From: Pontibacter coccineus
Lineage (GTDB): Bacteria; Bacteroidota; Bacteroidia; Cytophagales; Hymenobacteraceae
Assembly: GCF_030546575.1 (NCBI RefSeq)
Contig: NZ_JAUOTN010000003.1
Coordinates: forward strand, 62,001-126,000
Direction of reading: 5' to 3'
DNA: 64,000 nucleotides
Shown here piece by piece: positions 7,865 to 22,677 of the stretch (position 1 is its first letter; every line of letters starts with the position of its first letter). The position numbers and the translations under genes were made by a program. The notes under the pieces are model-generated. The model had not been told where the DNA came from. It saw only the letters and a program-made list of their open reading frames with translations, and did not search any database.

Positions 7865-8359
7865 ATGTATGTAAACCTCTACCCTAACAAAGCGCTGAAG
7901 AAGACAAAACAGATTCTGCTCTGGACAGGCATCCTGCTATTCTGCGGAGGTGTCTCTGCCCTGGCCGGCGAATTTATTGCCCGCGAAGAGATCCGCTGGG
8001 TCTGGGCGGGCGGCGCATTGCTAGTAGGTGCAATTGGTGCATTGGGTTTTGCCGTGGGCGCCGGCTACCTTCAATTGAAAGACGCCTACTTCTCCATGAC
8101 GCCGGAGCGCATCGCCTACCGGCTCACCTTGTATGGTGCTGAGCACACCATCTACTGGGACGCCATCGACAGCATACAGGCAACCGAGCATGCCCTGGTA
8201 TTCGACCTGAAAGACAGCAAGCAAATGATTATGCGACTTGGGCACATCCAAAGCCCCGAAATTGCAAACCACGTGAGTGTCAGTGTACAGCTAGCCGCTA
8301 TACAGCAGCAGGTTGAAGTAAACCAGGTGCCGGTTAGCGCACAACGCGTCAGTCTGTAG
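7865..8359 (+). CDS. Two-TM membrane protein with PH-like tail, paralog 2 of 3
   Basis: 164 residues. Two membrane segments (about residues 16-35 and 47-68) then a tail with FSMTPERIAYRLTLYGAEH, IYWDAIDSIQ and LVFDLKD. It is clearly homologous along its whole length to the third gene (MYVNLY versus MYISLY at the N-terminus; PERIAYRL versus PDRISYRL). Function unknown; the PH-like tail suggests a regulatory or scaffold role at the inner membrane, which is inference. It follows paralog 1 by only 4 bases. Confidence 0.75.
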   Translation: MYVNLYPNKALKKTKQILLWTGILLFCGGVSALAGEFIAREEIRWVWAGGALLVGAIGALGFAVGAGYLQLKDAYFSMTPERIAYRLTLYGAEHTIYWDAIDSIQATEHALVFDLKDSKQMIMRLGHIQSPEIANHVSVSVQLAAIQQQVEVNQVPVSAQRVSL

Positions 8360-8755
8360 CTTCCTCCTTCCCGAACTGCCAGCGATTCTGTTTAGAAGAA
8401 CACTTCTGATCTACCTGCTAACACAGGTTTTTTCTTCGCCCTAAGTCCCTTTGGTGTTTGGTGCCGCTATATTCTCAATGTCAAGATCAGTTGTTAGTAT
8501 GATAGCTCTATCAAGCTATACCTTGCTGCGATAACTGAACCTTATGCAGCAAGCAGAGAGCGAATATAATCTCACTCAAAACATCCAAACTAATGTTTTT
8601 TGATTTTTGGGTACTTTATTATTGGTAAAACAAAACTCGGGAAAAGGACGATCGTATTCTATTTTAGTTCAATTAATAATTTATATTTTACAATTTTATT
8701 AAATACTGCTGGTCAGCTCCGTCTTACTGTAAGTCACCTATTCAATACAGTTTCC
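8360..8755. other. Intergenic gap, about 396 bases
   Basis: No convincing gene. It holds one AGGTATA motif (about 8516) and an A/T-rich stretch from about 8580 that likely carries the promoter for paralog 3. The frame of paralog 3 runs upstream to 8600, but that extension is A/T-rich and unlike the paralogs. Confidence 0.55.
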
Positions 8756-9256
8756 ATGTACATCAGTCTTTATACAGCCCGACAACTGCGTAGGATCAAA
8801 GACCGGCTGCTTTGGTTAGGGCTGTTTATGGCAAGTGGAGGTGCGGCGGCACTACTTTACAATCTTATACTACGGCAGGAAGCCCGCTGGTTATGGGGAA
8901 TGGCAGCCTTCGTAATTGTTCTGGTCGGACTATACCTGCTGGCACTCGGCACGGGTAAAATATCGCTCAAAAATACTTTTGTGGCCATATCGCCGGACAG
9001 GATCTCTTACAGGCTTAACTTTTACGGCAAGGAGTATACCTTGGACTGGAGCAGTATAGCGGCTGTGCATTTTAGCGACCACTGCGTACTTTTTGACTTA
9101 CGGGGCGACCGCCAGAAGTCACTACTTCTTTCCGGTATCGAAAGTCACAACACGGCCAGCCAGGTGGCGTTGGGTCTACAGGTGGCTGCACTGGAGCGCA
9201 ATGTAACTGTCAATGGTGTGCGGTTTAATGTAGCTGGGCCGGCCAAAGGCTTTTAA
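8756..9256 (+). CDS. Two-TM membrane protein with PH-like tail, paralog 3 of 3
   Basis: 166 residues from the ATG at 8756, chosen because MYISLYTARQL matches the start of paralog 2. Two membrane segments follow, then a tail with VAISPDRISYRLNFYGKEY, LDWSSIAAVHF and VLFDLRGD. It is separated from paralog 2 by about 400 bases and probably has its own promoter, so its regulation may differ. Function unknown. Confidence 0.75.
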   Translation: MYISLYTARQLRRIKDRLLWLGLFMASGGAAALLYNLILRQEARWLWGMAAFVIVLVGLYLLALGTGKISLKNTFVAISPDRISYRLNFYGKEYTLDWSSIAAVHFSDHCVLFDLRGDRQKSLLLSGIESHNTASQVALGLQVAALERNVTVNGVRFNVAGPAKGF

Positions 9257-12160: not shown

Positions 12161-13078
12161 ATGAAAGCGCATAGCATACTTGAAACAATAGGCAGGACGC
12201 CCCATGTAAGAATCAACCGCATGTTCAAGGATAAATCGGAAGTGTGGATGAAACTGGAGCGCGCCAACCCGGGCGGCAGCATCAAAGACCGCATTGCCTT
12301 GGCCATGATCGAAGACGCTGAAACAAAGGGCATCCTTAAAAAGGATAGTGTGATCATCGAGCCAACCTCTGGTAACACCGGCGTGGGGCTGGCCATGGTC
12401 GCCGCCGTAAAAGGGTACCACCTGATTCTGGTGATGCCGGAGTCCATGTCCATAGAGCGGCGCAGGCTGATGACGGCTTATGGGGCCAAACTGGAGCTGA
12501 CGCCACGCGAAAAGGGCATGAAAGGTGCCATAGAACGTGCCCGCGAATTACTCGAGGAACACGAATCCTCCTGGATGCCCATGCAGTTTGATAACGAGGC
12601 CAACACGCAGGTACACATCGAAACCACAGCGCAGGAGATCCTGTCTGACTTTCCGGAAGGATTCGATTACATGATCACCGGGGTAGGCACCGGCGGGCAT
12701 ATAACAGGTGTGGCCAAGGTGCTGAAGCGACATTTTCCTAACCTCAAGGTATACGCGGTGGAGCCTTCCGCCTCGCCGGTGCTGAGCGGCGGACAGCCGG
12801 GGCCGCACCCGATACAAGGTGTAGGCGCGGGGTTTGTGCCCTCTATCATGGACACCAGTTTGTTGGACGGCGTGGTGCAGGTAGCAGCCGACGATGCTTA
12901 CGACTTTGCAAGACGAGCCGCCATGGAGGAAGGCATATTTGTAGGCATATCGTCGGGCGCGTCTTTGGCGGCGGTGCAGCAGAAATTGGACGAAGAGATT
13001 CCGGATGGTGCCCGGGTACTGACCTTCTGCTACGATACAGGGGAGCGATATTTATCAGTAGAGGGCCTTTTTGTGTAG
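12161..13078 (+). CDS. cysK: Cysteine synthase (O-acetylserine sulfhydrylase)
   Basis: 305 residues. A PLP enzyme that turns O-acetylserine and sulfide into cysteine. The PLP lysine is in NPGGSIKDR, the substrate loop is [12 protein letters not shown], the phosphate loop is [10 protein letters not shown], and SSGASLAA lies near the C-terminus. Length and motifs are standard. Co-transcribed with cysE and probably in a complex with it. Confidence 0.95.
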
Positions 13079-13137: not shown

Positions 13138-13572
13138 TTAGGCAGCCAGCAGTTCCTGGATGTCCTCGTTCAGCGATTCTTTCACTTTCTGCAGCTGACC
13201 GTCGGTTATGGTGCGTTGCAGGGCCTGGAACACGGCCCGGAAAGCCGCAGTGATTTCTTCATCCTGCTGAAAGTCATTGTCAGCGGCAAAGGCGTTTTTG
13301 TTTCGGATGTAATTGATCCAGTCGTTCGCATCCCGGATTTTCACAGGTACCTTATTCAGATCATACTGATCAAAGTAGACACCTTTCCAGAAAACGGGAA
13401 GCTGAGCAGCGAATTGTATGGCATCATGTACAGGCATTCTATCCCGTACAGATTGCAGCACAGCCCTGAAAATACGACCGGCTTTGTTGAGATCCTCCGT
13501 CTGTAGCTCTGCTGCTACATCCTTCAGCAGCAATGCTGCATCTTTGGTGCTGTCTTCAAAAATAAATGGCAT
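13138..13572 (-). CDS. DUF2267 family protein
   Basis: 144 residues, all-helical, cytoplasmic. The DUF2267 pattern is visible in RAVLQSVRDRMPVHDAIQFAAQLPVFWKGVYFDQYD. The family has no firm function; members often occur as small stress-related proteins. Alone on the minus strand, reading into a shared terminator with cysK. Confidence 0.8.
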   Translation of the reverse strand: MPFIFEDSTKDAALLLKDVAAELQTEDLNKAGRIFRAVLQSVRDRMPVHDAIQFAAQLPVFWKGVYFDQYDLNKVPVKIRDANDWINYIRNKNAFAADNDFQQDEEITAAFRAVFQALQRTITDGQLQKVKESLNEDIQELLAA

Positions 13573-13846
13573 AGATCCTCCCTTCTTTAAGCGTTACGTC
13601 CTATATGGTACGGGCAGGAGGGGGGCATGTTCCCTAATACCCGGCTTATCAGGTATAGCGGAGCCAGGATGTGGTAGTTCAGAAGAATGAATCACGGCAG
13701 TGTCATAATCAACTGCAGAAAGGTGCTATCGGAGTTAACAGGCAAAAAAGTTATAATTCCCTGAGGTATAATGAGATTAGAGACATTTGAGTTGATTAAG
13801 TATAAAAGTATCTATATATTGTACCGGTATAGAGCCATTACGAAGT

Positions 13847-15574
13847 ATGAATACGCAAGTCTCCTCGGTAGCACATTCGATTTTTAATAACAAAGGCGCC
13901 TTTGCGTTACTGCTCGGCTCCGGGGTTGCCGGGAATGCTGGTATACCTGCAGCCAGAGAGATAGCCACTGACCTGATCAGGCAGATAGCGGTGCTGGAAA
14001 ATGCGAAATGTGAGCCGAACCCGGAGGAGTGGTTTTTTGAGCGGTTCGGAGAGAAGCCCGGTTATGCGAGCCTGCTCGAGCCGCTCGCCAACACTGAGAC
14101 GGAGCGGCATAATTTGTTGAGAAGGTACTTCGAGCCCAGTGAGGCAGAGTTGGAGCAGGGACTGAAAAAACCGACGAACGCCCATCAAATAATTGCCCGC
14201 CTGGTGAGCAAGGGGTATGTACGGGTTATCCTGACGACCTCCCTGGACAGGCTGATGGAAAATGCCTTGAGATGCATAGGTATAGAGCCCGTTGTGATCA
14301 GCGGCCCCAGTCATATCGTGAACTCCCTGCCGATCGTCCATGCCCGGGTTACAGTCATCAAGATCAACGGGGACTACATTGATTCCAGCTTCCTGAATAT
14401 AAAGAGCGAGGCAGACAAGTATGAAGAGCGCCTTTCGGAGCTGCTGCGCTATGTGTCCGACAACTTCGGACTGATTACCTGCGGATGGTCAGCGGAAAGT
14501 GACAGTGTGTTGAAAGAGGCGCTGGAGACTTCCAACAAATTCAGATTCTCCAACTACTTCACTTATTCAGACAAGCTTGGAAATGAGTTAGAAGAGCTAG
14601 CCTACATCAGGCGGGGGAAAGCGGTGAGCATCACAAATGCCGACTCGTTCTTCAAAGAACTGCAGGAAAAAGTAGAGGCGCTTGAAAATGCAAGGCCTGC
14701 GAACCTTTCAAGATCACAGATCGCAATCGTCGAACTGAAGAAGCATATTGTGCAGGTCGACCAGATCATATCGCTTCATGACCTCGTCAGGGGTGAAATT
14801 GATCGGTTAAATGATAGCTTCAATGCGCTGCCGGTTACGGGTATACCTTCTAAGGAAGAGATAAAGGAGCGGGTAAATTACTACTTCCAGCAGTCCAATA
14901 CGCTTAGCGCACTGTTTGTGAATGGTGTTTATTGGGGGAGAGAACAGCACCATTCCATTTGGCTCAATAGCCTGGCCTGTTTTACATCCGAAAAAGAGCG
15001 GGAAGGTGAGGGTGGCGTGTGGCATGACCTGGAAACCCTGCCCGGGCTTATTTTTCTTTACAGCATAGGGCTGGCCAGCATTCTCAAGAAAGACTACAAG
15101 TTATTGTCCAGGATGTTTTCCATGACATCTCACGTGAGGTATGGTGAAGCGCCGATTCTGGATCATGTCCATGTGGCGAAGGTACTCGATTACGACACTT
15201 TGCGGGAAGCGCTGGGAAACAGGCAGCTCGTACCCATGTCCGAGTTGTTGTACTCAGAGCTGAAACCGCTCTTTAGCTCCTTCCTGCCGCACAGCAAAGA
15301 CTATGAAAACCTGTTCGACAGATTTGAATACCTGCTGGCTCTGTCCCACACCAAGATAATGGGGAAAGGCCGAATTCCTGTCGGCAGGTTCGGGTATAGG
15401 GTGAAACAGCATGGCGTCAAGCACCCTTTCGAACAGATCGCGTCTGAGCTCGGAAACCATACAGAAGGCAACAGCCTGTTCTCCCCCTCTCTGTTTGTCG
15501 ATATCACTGACCTAAAGCATACCGAGAAGAAATTCAAAGAATACTTTGACAAGCTTTCGGGGTATTATTTTTAA
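13847..15574 (+). CDS. SIR2-family protein, possible anti-phage NADase
   Basis: 575 residues. Residues about 15-270 are a SIR2-like Rossmann domain: LLLGSGVAGNAGIP (NAD loop, 22-34), LTTSLDRLMENAL (129-141), VIKINGDYIDS (170-180) and GLITCGWSAESD (208-219). The rest is a helical domain without a recognised family. Related stand-alone SIR2 proteins in bacteria deplete NAD+ in phage defence. Two key positions differ from the usual motifs: TTSLD instead of TTNxD and KINGD instead of KxHGD. So catalysis may be altered or lost. The gene stands alone, beside a tRNA gene, as islands often do, but no integrase is visible. Confidence 0.75.
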   Translation: MNTQVSSVAHSIFNNKGAFALLLGSGVAGNAGIPAAREIATDLIRQIAVLENAKCEPNPEEWFFERFGEKPGYASLLEPLANTETERHNLLRRYFEPSEAELEQGLKKPTNAHQIIARLVSKGYVRVILTTSLDRLMENALRCIGIEPVVISGPSHIVNSLPIVHARVTVIKINGDYIDSSFLNIKSEADKYEERLSELLRYVSDNFGLITCGWSAESDSVLKEALETSNKFRFSNYFTYSDKLGNELEELAYIRRGKAVSITNADSFFKELQEKVEALENARPANLSRSQIAIVELKKHIVQVDQIISLHDLVRGEIDRLNDSFNALPVTGIPSKEEIKERVNYYFQQSNTLSALFVNGVYWGREQHHSIWLNSLACFTSEKEREGEGGVWHDLETLPGLIFLYSIGLASILKKDYKLLSRMFSMTSHVRYGEAPILDHVHVAKVLDYDTLREALGNRQLVPMSELLYSELKPLFSSFLPHSKDYENLFDRFEYLLALSHTKIMGKGRIPVGRFGYRVKQHGVKHPFEQIASELGNHTEGNSLFSPSLFVDITDLKHTEKKFKEYFDKLSGYYF

Positions 15575-15689
15575 GGTAGCGAATTGAATTGATGCAGATG
15601 GAAAAGGCGGCTTTGAGCTTGTAGGTATAAGATATACCTTTTATTTATTACCAAAGTACAGTTGCAGGTATAGCCTGGCGTAAAAAAGA

Positions 15690-15715: not shown

Positions 15716-15716
15716 G

Positions 15717-15790
<74 letters not shown>

Positions 15791-15907: not shown

Positions 15908-18900
15908 CTAGTTGAAGATATAGCGCAGACCAAGCTGTGCATACCAGGTAGTTGAAAGCGTTGTTACGTCTCTGAATGGTTCTGTAGGAAGCACAGTTTG
16001 TCCGTTCTCCGTAACAGTTCTCATCTGGAAAGTAGGTACACCATCAGCACTGATAGGAGCGTCTTTGGTGTTGGTTGTCAGGATGCTCTGTGCATTGTTG
16101 AATGCTGTGCTGATACCCCAGTTAGAGTTGATCAGGTTGCCGATGTTCATTACGTCAGCGCTTATCTGAAGCGTGTTACGCTTGCCACCGATGTTGGTGT
16201 AGATGTCCTGTAGCAATCTGAAGTCGAAACGGTTCAACCAAGGCATCAGGGCGCCATTACGCTCAGCATACTGACCGCGTCTGGAGCTCAGGTAGTCATC
16301 GTTGTTGATAAAGTTATCAAAGGCCGTACGCTGTTGATCAGCAGTAAATAGCACAGCGCCCGTTTTGCCGTCCTTAATGTCAGCGAAGTTCAGGTTATCT
16401 ACATTGTTCGGTACATACAGCAGGTCGGCATTGATACCATCTTTGTTGATGTCACCATTGTAGGTATAAGAGAAACGTCCCTGATGTGAACCGTTGTAGA
16501 ACAAGGATACAGTAGTAGCCAGGTGGTTGAAGTAGTTTACTTTATAAGAAAGGCTACCTACCACGTTATGAGGCACTGCATACTGAGAGTTATAAAGGTT
16601 CTGCTCGTTCGGGCCGTTTACAGACGGGCTACCTAACCATGCAGAAGAAGCGTTTGATCCAGGGTTACTAGAAACTTCAGTAGCGTAAGTATAGGTATAG
16701 TAAAGTGAACCAAACAAACCATTGCGAGACGGAAGAGAAAGACCAACCGTGCTGCTGAAAGATTCTCCTTTCTTAGCAGTATTAGTCAGCACTACAGCAG
16801 TGTTAGCGTTAACAGCTTCATTATATTTTGTGCTGTTTGCACCTGCTGGGTAGTATCCTCTGTTGTCGTTCTCGCCTTCACCACCGTAGTTCAGCGTTAT
16901 AGGAGCATCTTTTCTGTTAGCACCAAACTGGTAAGCTGCATTCACGTCTTTTGTGTAGATAACGTCAGCAGTGGCTACCAGCGGTGTACCAGGGATCGTG
17001 TAGTCAGCACCAATGCTTGTTCTCCATACCTTAGGCATTCTGAACTCGTTGTCAACCAGGGCAAAGCTTGTAGGAACACCAGCTCTTGGGTTTTTGATGA
17101 ACACGTTCTGAGCGCTTGCCGGCGTGTTGTTCAACCAGTAGTATTGTTCCGGTTGGAAACGGATGTCACCAATCCAACCTGCAACTGATGCATAGCTGTT
17201 AGGTTCTACGTTGTTCTGGATTACACCAGAGTTCGATGGCATGTTTGTCAACCATACGAAAGGAACACGGCCGTTGAACAGACCAGTACCACCACGCAGC
17301 TGCAAAGAACCATCACCAAAGGCGTCAAAGTTGAAGCCGATACGTGGAGCCAGCATGATTCTGGATTTTGGCCATTCGCTGGTCGTGTACTTTTTGTCGC
17401 CGCCTTCCGGAGATCTCAGCGTAAGCTCATCAATAGACGGGTTGGCAGTCAGGTCGTTCATGTAAACAGGCAAGTCTGCACGCAAACCTAATGTCAGGTC
17501 CAGTCTGTCAGTAGCAGCAAATTTATCCTGGATGTAAGCACCTGCTGTACCCAATACGATTGGAGCATAAGGGTCCTGACCTTCGTAAGGGTAAGTCAGA
17601 CCGAACATGATTGGAGCCACTTCATTTGGAGTACCTGTTGTCAGGAAGTCTTCAACAGAGTTGTAGCGGTAGTAAGATGTACCCAAACGGATGTACTGGT
17701 TACCAAACTTCTGCGACTCAAATGTAGCACCACCAGTGATGGTGTGCTTGCCAGCCAGGTAGGTCAGGTTGTTGGTGATGCTGTAGTTGTTATTCAGTAC
17801 GTCGTTTCCAAACGTAAACAACTCATAGCCAAAAGTCATGTAGTTGGTGCCACCATTCCAGATATCAACCATTGGGAAGATCTCACTAGGAGATTTACGC
17901 GTATCCTGGATGCGGCTATACGTTGCCAGTAACTGGTTAGAAAGACGGGAAGAGAAAGTGCTGTTCAATTCAGCAGAAGCCGAACGAACGATGTTCTCTG
18001 TATCGTACATGGTTTTAGCAAAAGCCATAGACTGGTCGCTCACGCGGTTTACAGTAGAGCGCGGGCTTGGGCCTGAGCTGCCGTTCACCAAAGAACCAGC
18101 CTCGCCTTTCACCTGGTTGTAACGAACAGCAAGTTTATGGTTGTCGTTGATGTTCCAGTCAATACGAGCCAGTAAGTTGGTGCTCTTAGTGCCATTGTCG
18201 TTTGCGTAGCCTTCGTAAGCGCCTGGGTCATAACCCCAGGTGTTGATCAGGTGGTTACGCACCGCTTCAAGGTCAGATCTCTTGGTTCTGGCAATGTTTT
18301 GGTCAGGGTTAGCTACACCATCATCAGATGCTTTCCAAAGGTTTACAGCAAATGGGTTAGTGCCTTTTTCGTCGATGTTCTCAGCATTTACGAAGAAAAA
18401 CAGTTTATTCTTGATAATCGGACCACCTAAACGGAAACCTAAAGTACGGCTTGATGTTTCGTTGCCCTGATCAAGTTTTTCGCCATTTACTCTTCTGCCA
18501 TTCATGTCCTGGTTACGGTAGAAACCATATACTGAACCAGAGAACTCGTTGTTACCGCTACGGGTAACGGCATTGATGCCAGCACCCGTAAAGCCTGACT
18601 GACGAACGTCGAAAGGAGCGATGTTTACTTGTACCTGCTCAATCGCGTCAATAGAGATAGGCTGTGACCTGCCACCAGGAAGTGGATTGGAATTCAAGCC
18701 AAATCCGTTGTTAAAGTTTGCACCATCAATCTGTACGTTGTTAAAACGACCATCACGACCTGCAAAGCCATTACCGTTAGCCTGTGGCGTAAGTCGGGTA
18801 AAGTCTGTAAGGCTACGTGTTACGGTAGGCAATGTAGCAATCTGCTCAGTGCTCACGTTAGTCGCGGCGCCAGTTCTCTGGGCGTTGAATACCGAAGACT

Positions 18901-19267
18901 GGTCAGCTGTTACCGTCACTTCCGATAGCTGGGTACCACCGTCAGACATGGTAGCATCCAGCACGTAAGGGCGGCCAAGCTGCAAAGTGATGTTTGTGAA
19001 AGACATAGGCTGGTATCCTATGTAGCTTACCTCGATGGTATAAGGACCACCGATACGGGTGTTGGCGATGTTAAAGCGACCCTCTGTGTTGGTCACTGCG
19101 CCATACGTGGTGCCCGAGGGCTGGTGTGTTGCTCTTACGGTTGCCCCGATCAAAGCTTCACCCTTTGAATCCTTCACGGATCCACTTACGCTACTTGTTG
19201 TCACCTGTGCGTGCATAGTAAGCACGCATAGCAACATAAGCAGTGTTGATAGTAATAACTTTTTCAT
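15908..19267 (-). CDS. TonB-dependent outer-membrane receptor, Oar-like (copy 1)
   Basis: 1119 residues from the ATG at 19267 (open frame to 19321). A signal peptide ([21 protein letters not shown]) is followed by a CarboxypepD-regulatory-like domain ([18 protein letters not shown]), a plug domain ([49 protein letters not shown]) and a large beta barrel that ends in ARYIFN-like LGLRYIFN. Oar-type proteins lack a SusD partner, and none is seen here. The cargo is unknown; large ligands or proteins are possible. It is a paralog of the next gene. Codon use is less GC-rich than the neighbours and it carries few AGGTATA copies. Confidence 0.92.
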   Translation of the reverse strand: [1119 protein letters not shown]

Positions 19268-19422
19268 AAAAGATTGATTGATTTTTGCCCGCAAAATTAG
19301 AGCGTATAATTCGAAATGCAACTACTTAGAGATTAAATTATTATTAATAATCTGTCTTATGTTATTTGCTTTTTAGCACAAATAATTTATCGTAATTTGC
19401 AAATGGGCTGCTAGTTTAAACA

Positions 19423-19480
19423 CTGATTGCCAAAAAGAAAGGCGGAGCTGTATGGCTCCGCCTTTCTTTTTGGCAATCAG
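19423..19480. terminator. Very long hairpin, 26-base perfect stem
   Basis: Arms 19423-19448 and 19455-19480 are perfectly complementary with a 6-base loop; the core is GGCGGAGC / GCTCCGCC. It lies 24 bases after the stop of the second receptor on the minus strand, so it is a terminator, but the stem extends well past a normal terminator and includes the non-repetitive flank CTGATTGCC. Confidence 0.8.
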
Positions 19481-19503
19481 GTAGAATCGTACGCGGTTTA
19501 CTT

Positions 19504-22500
19504 TTAATTGAAGATGTATCGGATACCAAACTGAGCTCTCCAGCGCGACGAAAAGTCGTTCACAAAAAATGGGTCGCCGTCTGTCAGGCCGCGGCCGGTA
19601 TAGTTGAAACGGGGTGTCGTGGTGCCAGGCTCGTAGCCAACAAAGTCAATGGCCTGAAAAGCGTTGAAAGTCGCCGTGTACTGACGGCCCCAGTCTTTGT
19701 TGAGCAGGTTCGTGAAATTAAAAACGTCCAGGGTCAGCTGCAGCCGGTGGTTGTTCTCTTTCTGTCCTATGTAAAAGTCCTGCATCAGGCGCAAGTCAAT
19801 CTGATTTGTCCAGGGTAGCCTGTCCTCGTTCCGCTCCGCATACTGGCCTCGTCTGTCGCTCAGGTAGTCATTGCCACTGATAAAGGCGTCCAGCGCCTGC
19901 CACTGCTGCTCAGCCGAAACAACGGTTCCGTCCCGTTCGGTGTAAGGCACCAGGTTTATCTCCGAGGCATTGCCCGGGATGTAGATCAGGTCATTCGTTC
20001 TGCCAGCGTCGCTGTTTACGTCACCGTTGTAAATGTACGAAAGCGGCACGCCCGACTGCCCGTTGTAGAAAGCGGAGATAGTAGTGCCCGCAAAGCCCAG
20101 GTAATTTAAATTATAGGTAAGGCCGGCCACTACCCTCGACCGCACATCATTGTCGGCAAACGCTTCCCGCACATTGTTGAGGCCTTCCACCTGGTTCACA
20201 TTGATCCAGTTAGACCGTGCCTGGCTGGAGTTACCGGGGTTTACATCCTTTGCCCTGGAATAGGTATAGGCCAGCGAACCCGAAAGGCCGTTCTCCACAT
20301 ACGATTTCTGTAACTGAGCTGTCAGGCTGTAACCATAGCCACGGCTGGTGTTGGTCAGGTAGATGATGTCCTGGAAACTATTGCCCTGTATACGGCCAAA
20401 CACAGGCCGGTTGTCTGCTCCCGTCAAGGTTCCCGTCTGCTCCAGGTTCAGGTTCTGGTAGTAGATGTTGTTCAGATTTTTGGAGTATATACCTTCCAGG
20501 GTCGCCACCAGGTTAAAAGGAAGTCGTTGGTCAATGGCTGCATTGACCCGGAACAGCTGCGGAAACTTAAAGTCAGGATCTGTGATGTTGATCTCGGCTG
20601 TTCTGTCTGACAGGCCCACGGTGGTGGCCGTAGGCTGGGTGTTAGGGTCAGGGTTGAAGCGGATCTGCTCCAGTACCGGGCCCGAAGTGAGTGACAGGCT
20701 ACCCAGCATTTGGCCGGTATTGGTGTACTGGTTGGCTATCCATACAAACGGAGCCCGGCCGGTGAACACCCCAGCCCCACCACGCACCTGCGTATTGCCA
20801 TCGTCCATTACATCCCAGTTCACCCCCACACGGGGCGACAACATAAACTGAGCGCCCGGCGTCTTGTCCGTCGCCAGCCCCCTGCTTCTGAAGGCTTCGT
20901 TAAACTCCTCGTTTGCGGCAGGTTCGTCGTTAAAAGTCGGGATGTCCAGGCGTATACCTGCTGTCAGCTTCAGGTTGTTGAGAACTGCATATTCGTCCTG
21001 CGCATAGAAGCCGAGTTGAAAGGCGGAAAATTCGGCGCCCTGCTGGCGGTTGTCCGTGCGGGAGTAATTCCGGAAGAAAGCGCCGGGCGCTGTTTCAGCG
21101 GGCGTGCCAATGGCTTCAAAAGCCTCGAGGGAGTTGTATTCATAGGCACCGAACTCCTGCCGGATGAACAGGTTGTAGGTTTTGTAAAATTCGTTGTGCG
21201 TTCCCAGCGTGATCGTGTGCTTACCCAAAAACAGGTTGAAGTTGTCGGTGATGGTGAGCACGTCCTGGTCGAGCTGGTTCTGGCCTGAAAAAGGCTCGCC
21301 GCCCAGCGCAATGGTGCGGCCACCTGCCAAACGGACCAGCACGCTCGGGAAAGGGGCGCCTATGATGTCGCGGTCGTCACGCACTGCCGTAAAACCGATA
21401 ATGGCCTCGTTGGCATACTGGCCCCCAAACTGACTGCGCAGCTGTAGCACGCTGGAGTTGGTGGTGCTGGGGAAATACTCGGCGTTGTTAGAGAAACGCA
21501 ACGCATTCGGTGTTCTGGAGTTGTCAATGTTCTCGCCATACACATAGCTGTGGCGGAGCGTAAGTTGGTGGTTGTCGGTGATGTTCCAGTCGAGTCGGGC
21601 AAAAATCTTGTCGCTCCGGGTTTCATCGTCTATACCTCTGAAGCTGCCTGGGTCATAGCCCAGGCGATTGGCGACGTTCAGCGCGCGGGTGGCTTCGTCT
21701 ACTGTGATGTTGGAGCCCGGGGTGCCGGGCTCGAAGAGGAGCGGGGCCACTCGTTTGGTTTTCTCGCCATTCACAAAAAAGAACAGCTTGTCTTTGATAA
21801 TAGGGCCGCCGATGCGCAGGCCGGTCTGGTAATCGGTAAAGTCCGGCAGCCGGGTGCGCGAATCATCCGGGCTCTTGCCCACCAGGCGCTCATTGTTGCC
21901 AAAATAATAGGCTGAGCCAGTGAACTGGTTCGATCCGCTGCGCGTGATGGCATTGATGCCGCCTCCCGTAAAACCGCTTTGTCGCACATCAAAAGGAGCA
22001 ATTACCACCTGTATCGCCTCAATGGCATCCAGCGAGATGGGTTGTACACCGGTTTGGCCGCCGTTGGTGCCGCTGGCCGAGAGCCCGAACACGTCGTTGT
22101 TCACGGTGCCGTCTATCGAGAAGTTGTTGAAGCGGTTGTTCTGGCCGGCAAACGATATACCTGACCCAGATGTAGTGGCTTGTGGTGTGATACGGGTAAA
22201 GTCGTTCAGGCTTCGGCTGATGGTAGGTAGGGATTCCAACTGCTCTGTGGACACGTTGGTGGCGGCGCCCGTCCGGTCGGAGTTTATGACTTTGTCCTGC
22301 GTAGCAGTGATCTGCACCTCGCCAAGGGTGGTAGTGCTTTCTGAAATGGTCAGGTCCAATCGGTAGTTCTGGCCGAGTGTCAGGTTAATGTTGTCAACCC
22401 GCTGCTCCTGGTAACCAACATAGGAGGTTCGTACGGTATAGGGCCCACCTACACGCATGTTCTGGATATTGTAACGGCCTTCTGCGTTTGTGGCGGCTAC

Positions 22501-22677
22501 GTACTGGGTATTAGTGGGGGTATGGACCGCAATAACCGTTGCGCCAGGCAATGGTGAGCCGTTCTGGTCCTGCACCACGCCGTTCATGGCCGCAGTTGTC
22601 GTACCCTGTGCCCATACCAAATGGCTGCTCAGCAGCAAAAGGAGGGATACAAGCAACTTTGTGTAAATTGTCCTCAT
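19504..22677 (-). CDS. TonB-dependent outer-membrane receptor, Oar-like (copy 2)
   Basis: 1057 residues. Signal peptide (ending near LVWAQ), carboxypeptidase-regulatory-like domain ([18 protein letters not shown]), plug ([37 protein letters not shown]) and a beta barrel with the C-terminal FGIRYIFN. It shares long stretches with copy 1 ([38 protein letters not shown]), so the two are tandem duplicates that have diverged in the barrel. No SusD-like gene is next to it. Separate terminators for the two genes suggest separate transcription. Confidence 0.92.
   Translation of the reverse strand: [1057 protein letters not shown]

Follow-up and report, generated by a model that had tools for sequence, protein, structure and literature searches.

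A SIR2-family protein of Pontibacter with a replaced catalytic pair, maintained at a single locus in nine species

In a 64,000 nt stretch of the Pontibacter coccineus genome (the window, at its full length; the genome comprises 4.66 Mb on 12 contigs), one gene encodes a 575 aa protein with a predicted SIR2 fold that belongs to the candidate defence family PDC-S65 and in which both residues of the catalytic Asn-His pair are replaced. The gene occupies one locus in nine Pontibacter species, where it evolves under purifying selection. We give about an even chance to the reading that it is a domesticated and disarmed SIR2 immune effector, which would now work by binding rather than by cutting NAD.

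The gene, its family and its predicted fold

The features discussed in the text are located in the window as follows:
13847-15574, plus strand: SIR2-domain gene of the PDC-S65 family with an altered active site (Pontibacter; ORF of 575 aa with ATG start)
13847-14689, plus strand: SIR2 domain, residues 1-281 (structure match to SPARSA Sir2 8y80)
13955-13957, plus strand: codon of Arg37, replacing a tryptophan that is invariant in 33 other family rows
14240-14242, plus strand: TCC codon of Ser132, replacing the catalytic Asn
14366-14368, plus strand: AAC codon of Asn174, replacing the catalytic His
14702-15571, plus strand: C-terminal helical domain, residues 286-575 (AlphaFold2 model)
13799-13825, plus strand: conserved upstream block, probably a promoter (alignment of nine orthologues)
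13633-15681, no strand: inserted single-gene cassette, absent from genome G046 (limits are those of the blastn matches)
15716-15790, minus strand: tRNA-Ala(GGC), island attachment site in related genomes
13138-13572, minus strand: DUF2267 gene, the left neighbour (PF10025, E = 4.2e-23)
12161-13078, plus strand: cysM-like gene, used as locus marker (the name is our reading; PF00291, E = 3.1e-73)

The initial annotation had called the product a SIR2-family, defence-like protein, and both the fold and the family match bear this out. The PADLOC profile PDLC05061 (PDC-S65) aligned with residues 2-569 of 575 over positions 16-588 of its 592 (E = 3.8e-184, 612 bits), which by sequence makes the protein a near full-length member of this candidate phage-defence family. 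After a second PDC-S65 model, the next-best PADLOC models were those of SIR2-Argonaute systems (E of 1e-17 or weaker), and ThsA scored E = 0.0057. The Pfam model SIR2_2 reached 23.8 bits on the protein (E = 5.1e-5), below its cut-off of 24.5, and 26.4 bits, above the cut-off, in the genome search; a Pfam HAD match (E = 0.024) was taken as chance. PDCs are candidates, many of them single-gene, that stem from a guilt-by-embedding screen and are mostly unvalidated (PMC12988326), and no paper naming PDC-S65 was found in the literature searched.

The full-length AlphaFold2 model, built from 17 sequences, has a mean pLDDT of 76.6 and a pTM of 0.56. Its residues 3-281 superimpose on the SPARSA Sir2 subunit 8y80 (Z 23.8, rmsd 3.4, 268 aligned), and the SIR2-domain model also matches ThsA (Z 21.5 to 8bto), DSR2 (up to 19.8) and KomC (up to 19.6), so that, as predicted, the protein has the Rossmann-type SIR2 fold. 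The SPARSA Sir2 subunit is likewise the nearest solved sequence in a profile search (8jkz, 8jl0 and 8in8 alike, E = 1.5e-10). The loop 175-191 by Asn174 was poorly modelled (pLDDT <50).

The C-terminal half, modelled alone, reached a pTM of 0.86 and is predicted to be almost all-helical with two short strands. The earlier statement that the C-terminal 300 residues match no family needs amending, since the PDC-S65 candidate model covers them; it holds for solved structures, as Foldseek against the PDB gave no match at E ≤ 0.001. A second structure comparison returned as its best match a designed protein (Z 7.8), within the range commonly seen, and DSR2 chains were absent among the 50 matches listed for this half, which is no evidence against a kinship with DSR2. 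Casein-kinase matches at residues 469-512 (E = 0.14 and worse) were taken as chance.

SIR2 effectors of this type are thought to kill phage-infected cells through the destruction of NAD. The two residues by which the NADases ThsA, DSR2, SPARSA and KomC are recognised, the catalytic Asn of TTNxD and the His of KxHGD, are both replaced in the window protein, and it departs from each of these systems in further ways. ThsA of Thoeris shares the SIR2 domain but is described as a SIR2-SLOG protein; its C-terminal SLOG domain is alpha/beta, whereas the C-terminal half here is predicted to be helical. DSR2 (defence-associated sirtuin 2) has the same order of a SIR2 domain and a helical C-terminus, in which cavities bind the phage tail tube protein, but is about 1000 residues long as against 575 here. 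KomC of the Kongming system also has a SIR2 domain, and its engineered H146N substitution aligns with the natural Asn174; it differs in having 264 residues in the PDB, in having been solved with KomB and in that the wild type, by alignment, carries Asn and His. The Geobacter SPARSA Sir2-APAZ protein, which has the closest solved SIR2 domain by both sequence and structure, has Asn142 and His186 and acts together with a short Argonaute (PMC10781750); the window protein carries Ser132 and Asn174, and its gene has no Argonaute gene among the neighbours seen.

Those neighbours are cysE-, cysM- and DUF2267-type genes, the tRNA and receptor-like genes (the names cysE and receptor are our reading; for the cysE-type gene Pfam gives only Hexapep, below the cut-off), and neither HerA nor any other partner gene was seen adjoining the SIR2 ORF. 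Human FAM118A and FAM118B, each of which alone processes NAD very weakly and which together process much more (PMC12700824), offer a model in which the window protein would be half of a two-part enzyme and modulate an active SIR2 partner by co-assembly. The conserved SIR2 scaffold would suit such a role, but the window genome holds a single copy of the protein and no second SIR2_2 match at E ≤ 0.01 (CobB-type sirtuins lie outside this search), and FAM118A retains its own His and Asn; we regard this explanation as very improbable.

Active-site residues and their histories

In the ORF, TTSLD begins at residue 130 (Ser132, Asp134), KINGD at 172 (Asn174) and CGWSAE at 212. The initial annotation had read Ser132 and Asn174 in place of the usual Asn and His, and this was confirmed by residue count and by an alignment that is unambiguous at both sites, where they stand opposite N142 and H186 of SPARSA (our count along the alignment).

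To place these residues in the family, 45 rows were compared: the window protein, its eight same-locus orthologues, two homologues of the genus at 60% identity, eight records from an order that we take to be Bacteroidales, two phylum hits, 13 plasmid records (read out of 40 matching ones) and 11 viral contigs. In the phylum search, 23 of 395 genomes matched the PDC-S65 profile at E ≤ 0.001, three of them near full-length with the window's own included, and the other two of these three were taken into the rows; the profile also matched two of 14 control genomes. Three of 390 genomes of the window's own order matched at E ≤ 1e-30, all of them Pontibacter, again counting the window's own. The tree (43 rows) and the count over 34 rows outside the nine-species group omit L128 (short ORF) and L137 (incomplete), and a count over 33 rows further omits L136, which is identical to L135.

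Residue 132 is Asn in 36 rows, Thr in five and Ser in four, the nine Ser/Thr rows being the window protein and its eight same-locus orthologues. The protein thus resembles PDC-S65 in its near full-length profile match and in having relatives on plasmids and viral contigs, but differs from the other 36 rows, which all have Asn132 (TTNF or TLNF), through the TT(S/T)L of its group and the loss of Trp37. In the tree the Ser/Thr132 group forms one clade with one origin (support 100/100). Residue 174 is Asn in 25 rows and His in 20, although 25 of 45 is no unbiased frequency because the scan patterns, which included KINGDYID for the genome contigs and K(I/V)NGDY(I/M) and TT(N/T/S)(L/F)DRL for the viral ones, favour Asn174. 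The His174 state requires five changes on the tree, at least four of which are forced by well-supported branches. The initial reading of an altered site thus needs one amendment: since members of the family often carry Asn at 174 naturally, only Ser132, together with the changes at Trp37, Phe133 and Leu189, is special to the clade of nine species. Close homologues with the canonical residues had been named as a possible argument against an altered site, and one exists: the G010 copy of the same genus, at about 60% identity, carries TTNFD and KIHGD, yet it confirms the difference. The G012 copy, equally distant, carries TTNFD and KINGD. No convincing residue that compensates for His174 was found in the Asn174 rows, as the contrasts L058/L059 and L086/L127 share changes in the same direction only at columns 84 and 229 besides 174. 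His/Asn switching at residue 174 in PDC-S65 spans bacteria and archaea and occurred at least four times.

Beyond the pair, 48 columns are conserved in at least 94% of the 34 outside rows, and 38 of these keep their residue throughout the nine orthologues. Changes affect ten columns, namely 17, 26, 28, 36, 37, 132, 133, 189, 215 and 265, of which 37, 132, 133 and 189 differ in all nine. Ser28, Trp37, Asn132, Phe133 and Leu189 are invariant in the 33 outside rows; the nine orthologues have K, R, S or G at 37, T or S at 132, and throughout L at 133, N at 174 and A at 189. The earlier claim that the NAD-loop and CGWSAE motifs are kept therefore stands for CGWSAE and for the GSG of the loop, which eight of the nine orthologues retain (L006 has Asp there), and only in part for the loop as a whole: Ser28 (34/34 outside rows), Gly36 (32/34) and Trp37 (34/34) are all replaced in the window protein. 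Among the nine orthologues, variability peaks at 28-38 when 11-residue windows starting in 1-275 are compared, and across the whole protein this stretch ranks second of 565. By alignment, SPARSA, an active NADase, is itself without Trp at the position of Trp37.

Mutants of the solved relatives indicate what such replacements might do. The SPARSA exchanges N142A and H186A each abolished NADase activity (PMC10781750), and the alanine mutant of DSR2 Tyr134 degraded clearly less NAD (PMC11263360); Phe133 appears to correspond to DSR2 Tyr134, as both stand beside the Asn position. A PDB entry shows, by its title, KomC H146N complexed with NAD fragments, H146 aligning with the Asn174 column. Taken together, the replaced pair, the SPARSA mutants and the KomC complex make it likely that the ordinary NADase activity of the window protein has been lost and possible, by analogy, that NAD is still bound. 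The SPARSA authors propose that the Asn-His pair controls water access rather than acting directly (PMC10781750), so that another arrangement could still cut NAD; likewise, Asn need not mean inactivity, as Asn174 is found in many relatives in which the rest of the site is intact.

These points bear on the alternative of a re-tooled enzyme that would still be an abortive-infection effector, performing chemistry on NAD or another nucleotide through Ser/Thr132, Leu133, Asn174 and Ala189. Residues fixed at 133, 174 and 189 in nine species, with only T or S admitted at 132, are unlike free decay, and the repeated switching at 174 in otherwise intact relatives suggests that Asn is compatible with some selected function. 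A working enzyme is harder to reconcile with a cofactor loop that varies more among the nine than any other part of the SIR2 domain and has lost Trp37, and with SPARSA proteins that become inactive when either residue of the pair is exchanged for alanine; we judge it unlikely, at roughly one chance in five. Overlapping with both the binding and the re-tooled readings, and slightly less doubtful than the latter, is the tentative idea of a re-specified SIR2 effector: the fixed new pocket of Ser/Thr132, Leu133, Asn174 and Ala189 may have as its ligand or substrate a molecule new to SIR2 proteins, making a house sensor or regulator out of a suicide enzyme. If this idea were true, the repeated His/Asn switches would mark lineages of the family that use NAD uncut.

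Locus, insertion history and selection

The gene is present in 11 of 50 genomes of the genus, nine at 83-100% identity (the window's own included) and two at about 60%; the housekeeping distribution that had been named as a further counter-argument is thus absent. In the eight other same-locus genomes the gene is flanked on one side by DUF2267 and then cysM, and on the other by the tRNA-Ala or its island copy; cysE was also seen in seven of them (the G039 stretch stops inside cysM); the window shows the same gene order. The cysM marker has a DNA match in 48 of the 50 genomes, 30 of which were used for a cysM tree. There the nine genomes with the SIR2 gene form one group (support 82/91), and the gene-less G046 stands next to them with weak support (86/64); relative to the window, G018 takes a different position in the cysM tree from that in the SIR2 tree. 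In place of window positions 13633-15681, G046 has about 48 bp (blastn), and the SIR2 gene is the sole gene of the cassette delimited against this empty site. Because DUF2267 adjoins the tRNA in G046 as well, it is older than the insertion. The single locus, the cysM grouping and the empty site together make one gain followed by vertical descent the simplest history that these sequences suggest.

The tRNA-Ala(GGC) lies 141 bp past the stop codon of the SIR2 gene, and the remark in the initial annotation that a tRNA next door is a common site for islands proved apt. In six of the 16 further genomes compared at the locus, 46-47 bp from the 3′ end of the tRNA gene occur a second time, and in five of the six islands the intact tRNA follows 8.7 to ~21 kb further on; for G031, the fetched stretch reached the contig end first. 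Of the 70 ORFs of at least 120 aa from the six pooled islands, six carry an integrase domain, a number consistent with one per island, five match N6_Mtase, three HSDR_N and three Methylase_S (among 25 of 45 Pfam families listed), and the PADLOC families listed (25 of 291) include models for restriction-modification of types I and II. Judged by sequence, the tRNA is a real integrase-island hotspot in Pontibacter. Four of the six island-bearing genomes also have the SIR2 gene and belong to the nine, but the gene lies outside the tRNA islands, from which the repeat separates it. A decayed tRNA copy, the mark of an arrival with a tRNA island, was sought on the DUF2267 side, where only chance-level matches of 10-11 bases occurred. 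The pooled islands also hold terminase-like and primase-like genes (an example island is L069:6273-15083).

The two 60% copies of the genus lie at other loci and both keep Asn132. Both have defence-type genes nearby: close to the L058 copy (TTN) there is a KAP NTPase resembling PifA, and an integrase lies ~7 kb from this copy; the L059 copy (TTN) is preceded by a pair of Schlafen-type helicases with weaker matches to PDC-S41, AbiO and Nhi. Ten of the 13 plasmid relatives lie no more than 8 kb from a gene of the restriction, integrase, recombinase, transposase or transfer type, although in a plasmid setting such neighbours indicate little beyond mobility. Proteins related in part to the SIR2 half, and labelled TPR or hypothetical, are found in the records of Haloferax virus Halfgib1 and of two Vibrio phages (H21-H23).

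Pairwise comparison of the nine orthologues (36 pairs) gave a dN/dS of 0.063 over the full gene; by region it was 0.059 (residues 1-285), 0.041 (SIR2 core, 110-230), 0.062 (286-575), 0.090 (286-420) and 0.044 (421-575), compared with 0.031 for cysM and 0.079 for DUF2267. As dS exceeds 1 in most sets, these ratios are approximate. No in-frame stop occurs in the 11 copies of the genus. The 27-bp block at 13799-13825, which ends 21 bp before the start codon, has few differences across the nine orthologues, while the sequence further upstream is mostly unconserved; it is probably a promoter. With up to three mismatches it has one match in the genome, and being unrepeated it allows no regulon to be derived. 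The alignments thus place the gene under purifying selection in all nine species and show it not to be decaying. The two missing catalytic residues, the lost tryptophan of the cofactor loop and the Asp in the GSG loop of L006 are what one would expect of a gene whose active site disappeared because the gene was no longer needed, but the intact frames, a dN/dS of about 0.06 that includes the SIR2 core and the conserved upstream block speak so clearly for maintenance that we give this explanation hardly any weight.

Defence by other means than NAD cleavage, for instance by a C-terminal domain that binds and titrates a phage protein, would agree with the PDC-S65 label, with the restriction-modification genes in the tRNA-Ala islands and with the strong constraint on residues 421-575. 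Defence genes usually show patchy turnover, against which stands one copy at one site across nine species, and we consider this possibility improbable, though not negligibly so.

Proposed mechanism and further genes of the window

Nine copies at one locus in one species group are unlike a freely moving defence gene, and the reading that we prefer, that of a disarmed effector working by binding, would run as follows. A mobile PDC-S65 gene, with relatives that have an intact or half-intact Asn-His site, would have inserted a single time, in the ancestor of the nine species, into the interval that separates DUF2267 from the tRNA-Ala. NAD cleavage would have been switched off by Asn at 174, the change of Asn132 to Thr or Ser and the loss of the cofactor-loop tryptophan. 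The protein would have retained its SIR2 scaffold and C-terminal helical domain, along with most of the remaining conserved motifs. The C-terminal domain may now sense a protein or another signal, and the SIR2 scaffold, possibly nucleotide-bound, may provide assembly or a nucleotide-gated switch.

Some eukaryotic TIR proteins are suspected to be inactive scaffolds that descend from immune NADases (PMC12700824); no description of a bacterial disarmed SIR2 effector kept under selection was found in the literature searched, outside of which lie most subscription journals and bioRxiv. One genus offers a natural series here, with an intact Asn-His pair in G010, a half-intact one in G012 and a doubly changed and fixed one in nine species, which allows a direct test of what a SIR2 immune domain does without cutting NAD, and of the domestication of a suicide gene.

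Two further gene pairs of the window appear, in our reading, to be duplicates or relatives. The adjacent ORFs at 7865-8359 and 8600-9256 are apparent tandem duplicates of one membrane protein, and on the minus strand of 15908-22677 there are two large, adjacent and mutually related ORFs that resemble outer-membrane receptors.
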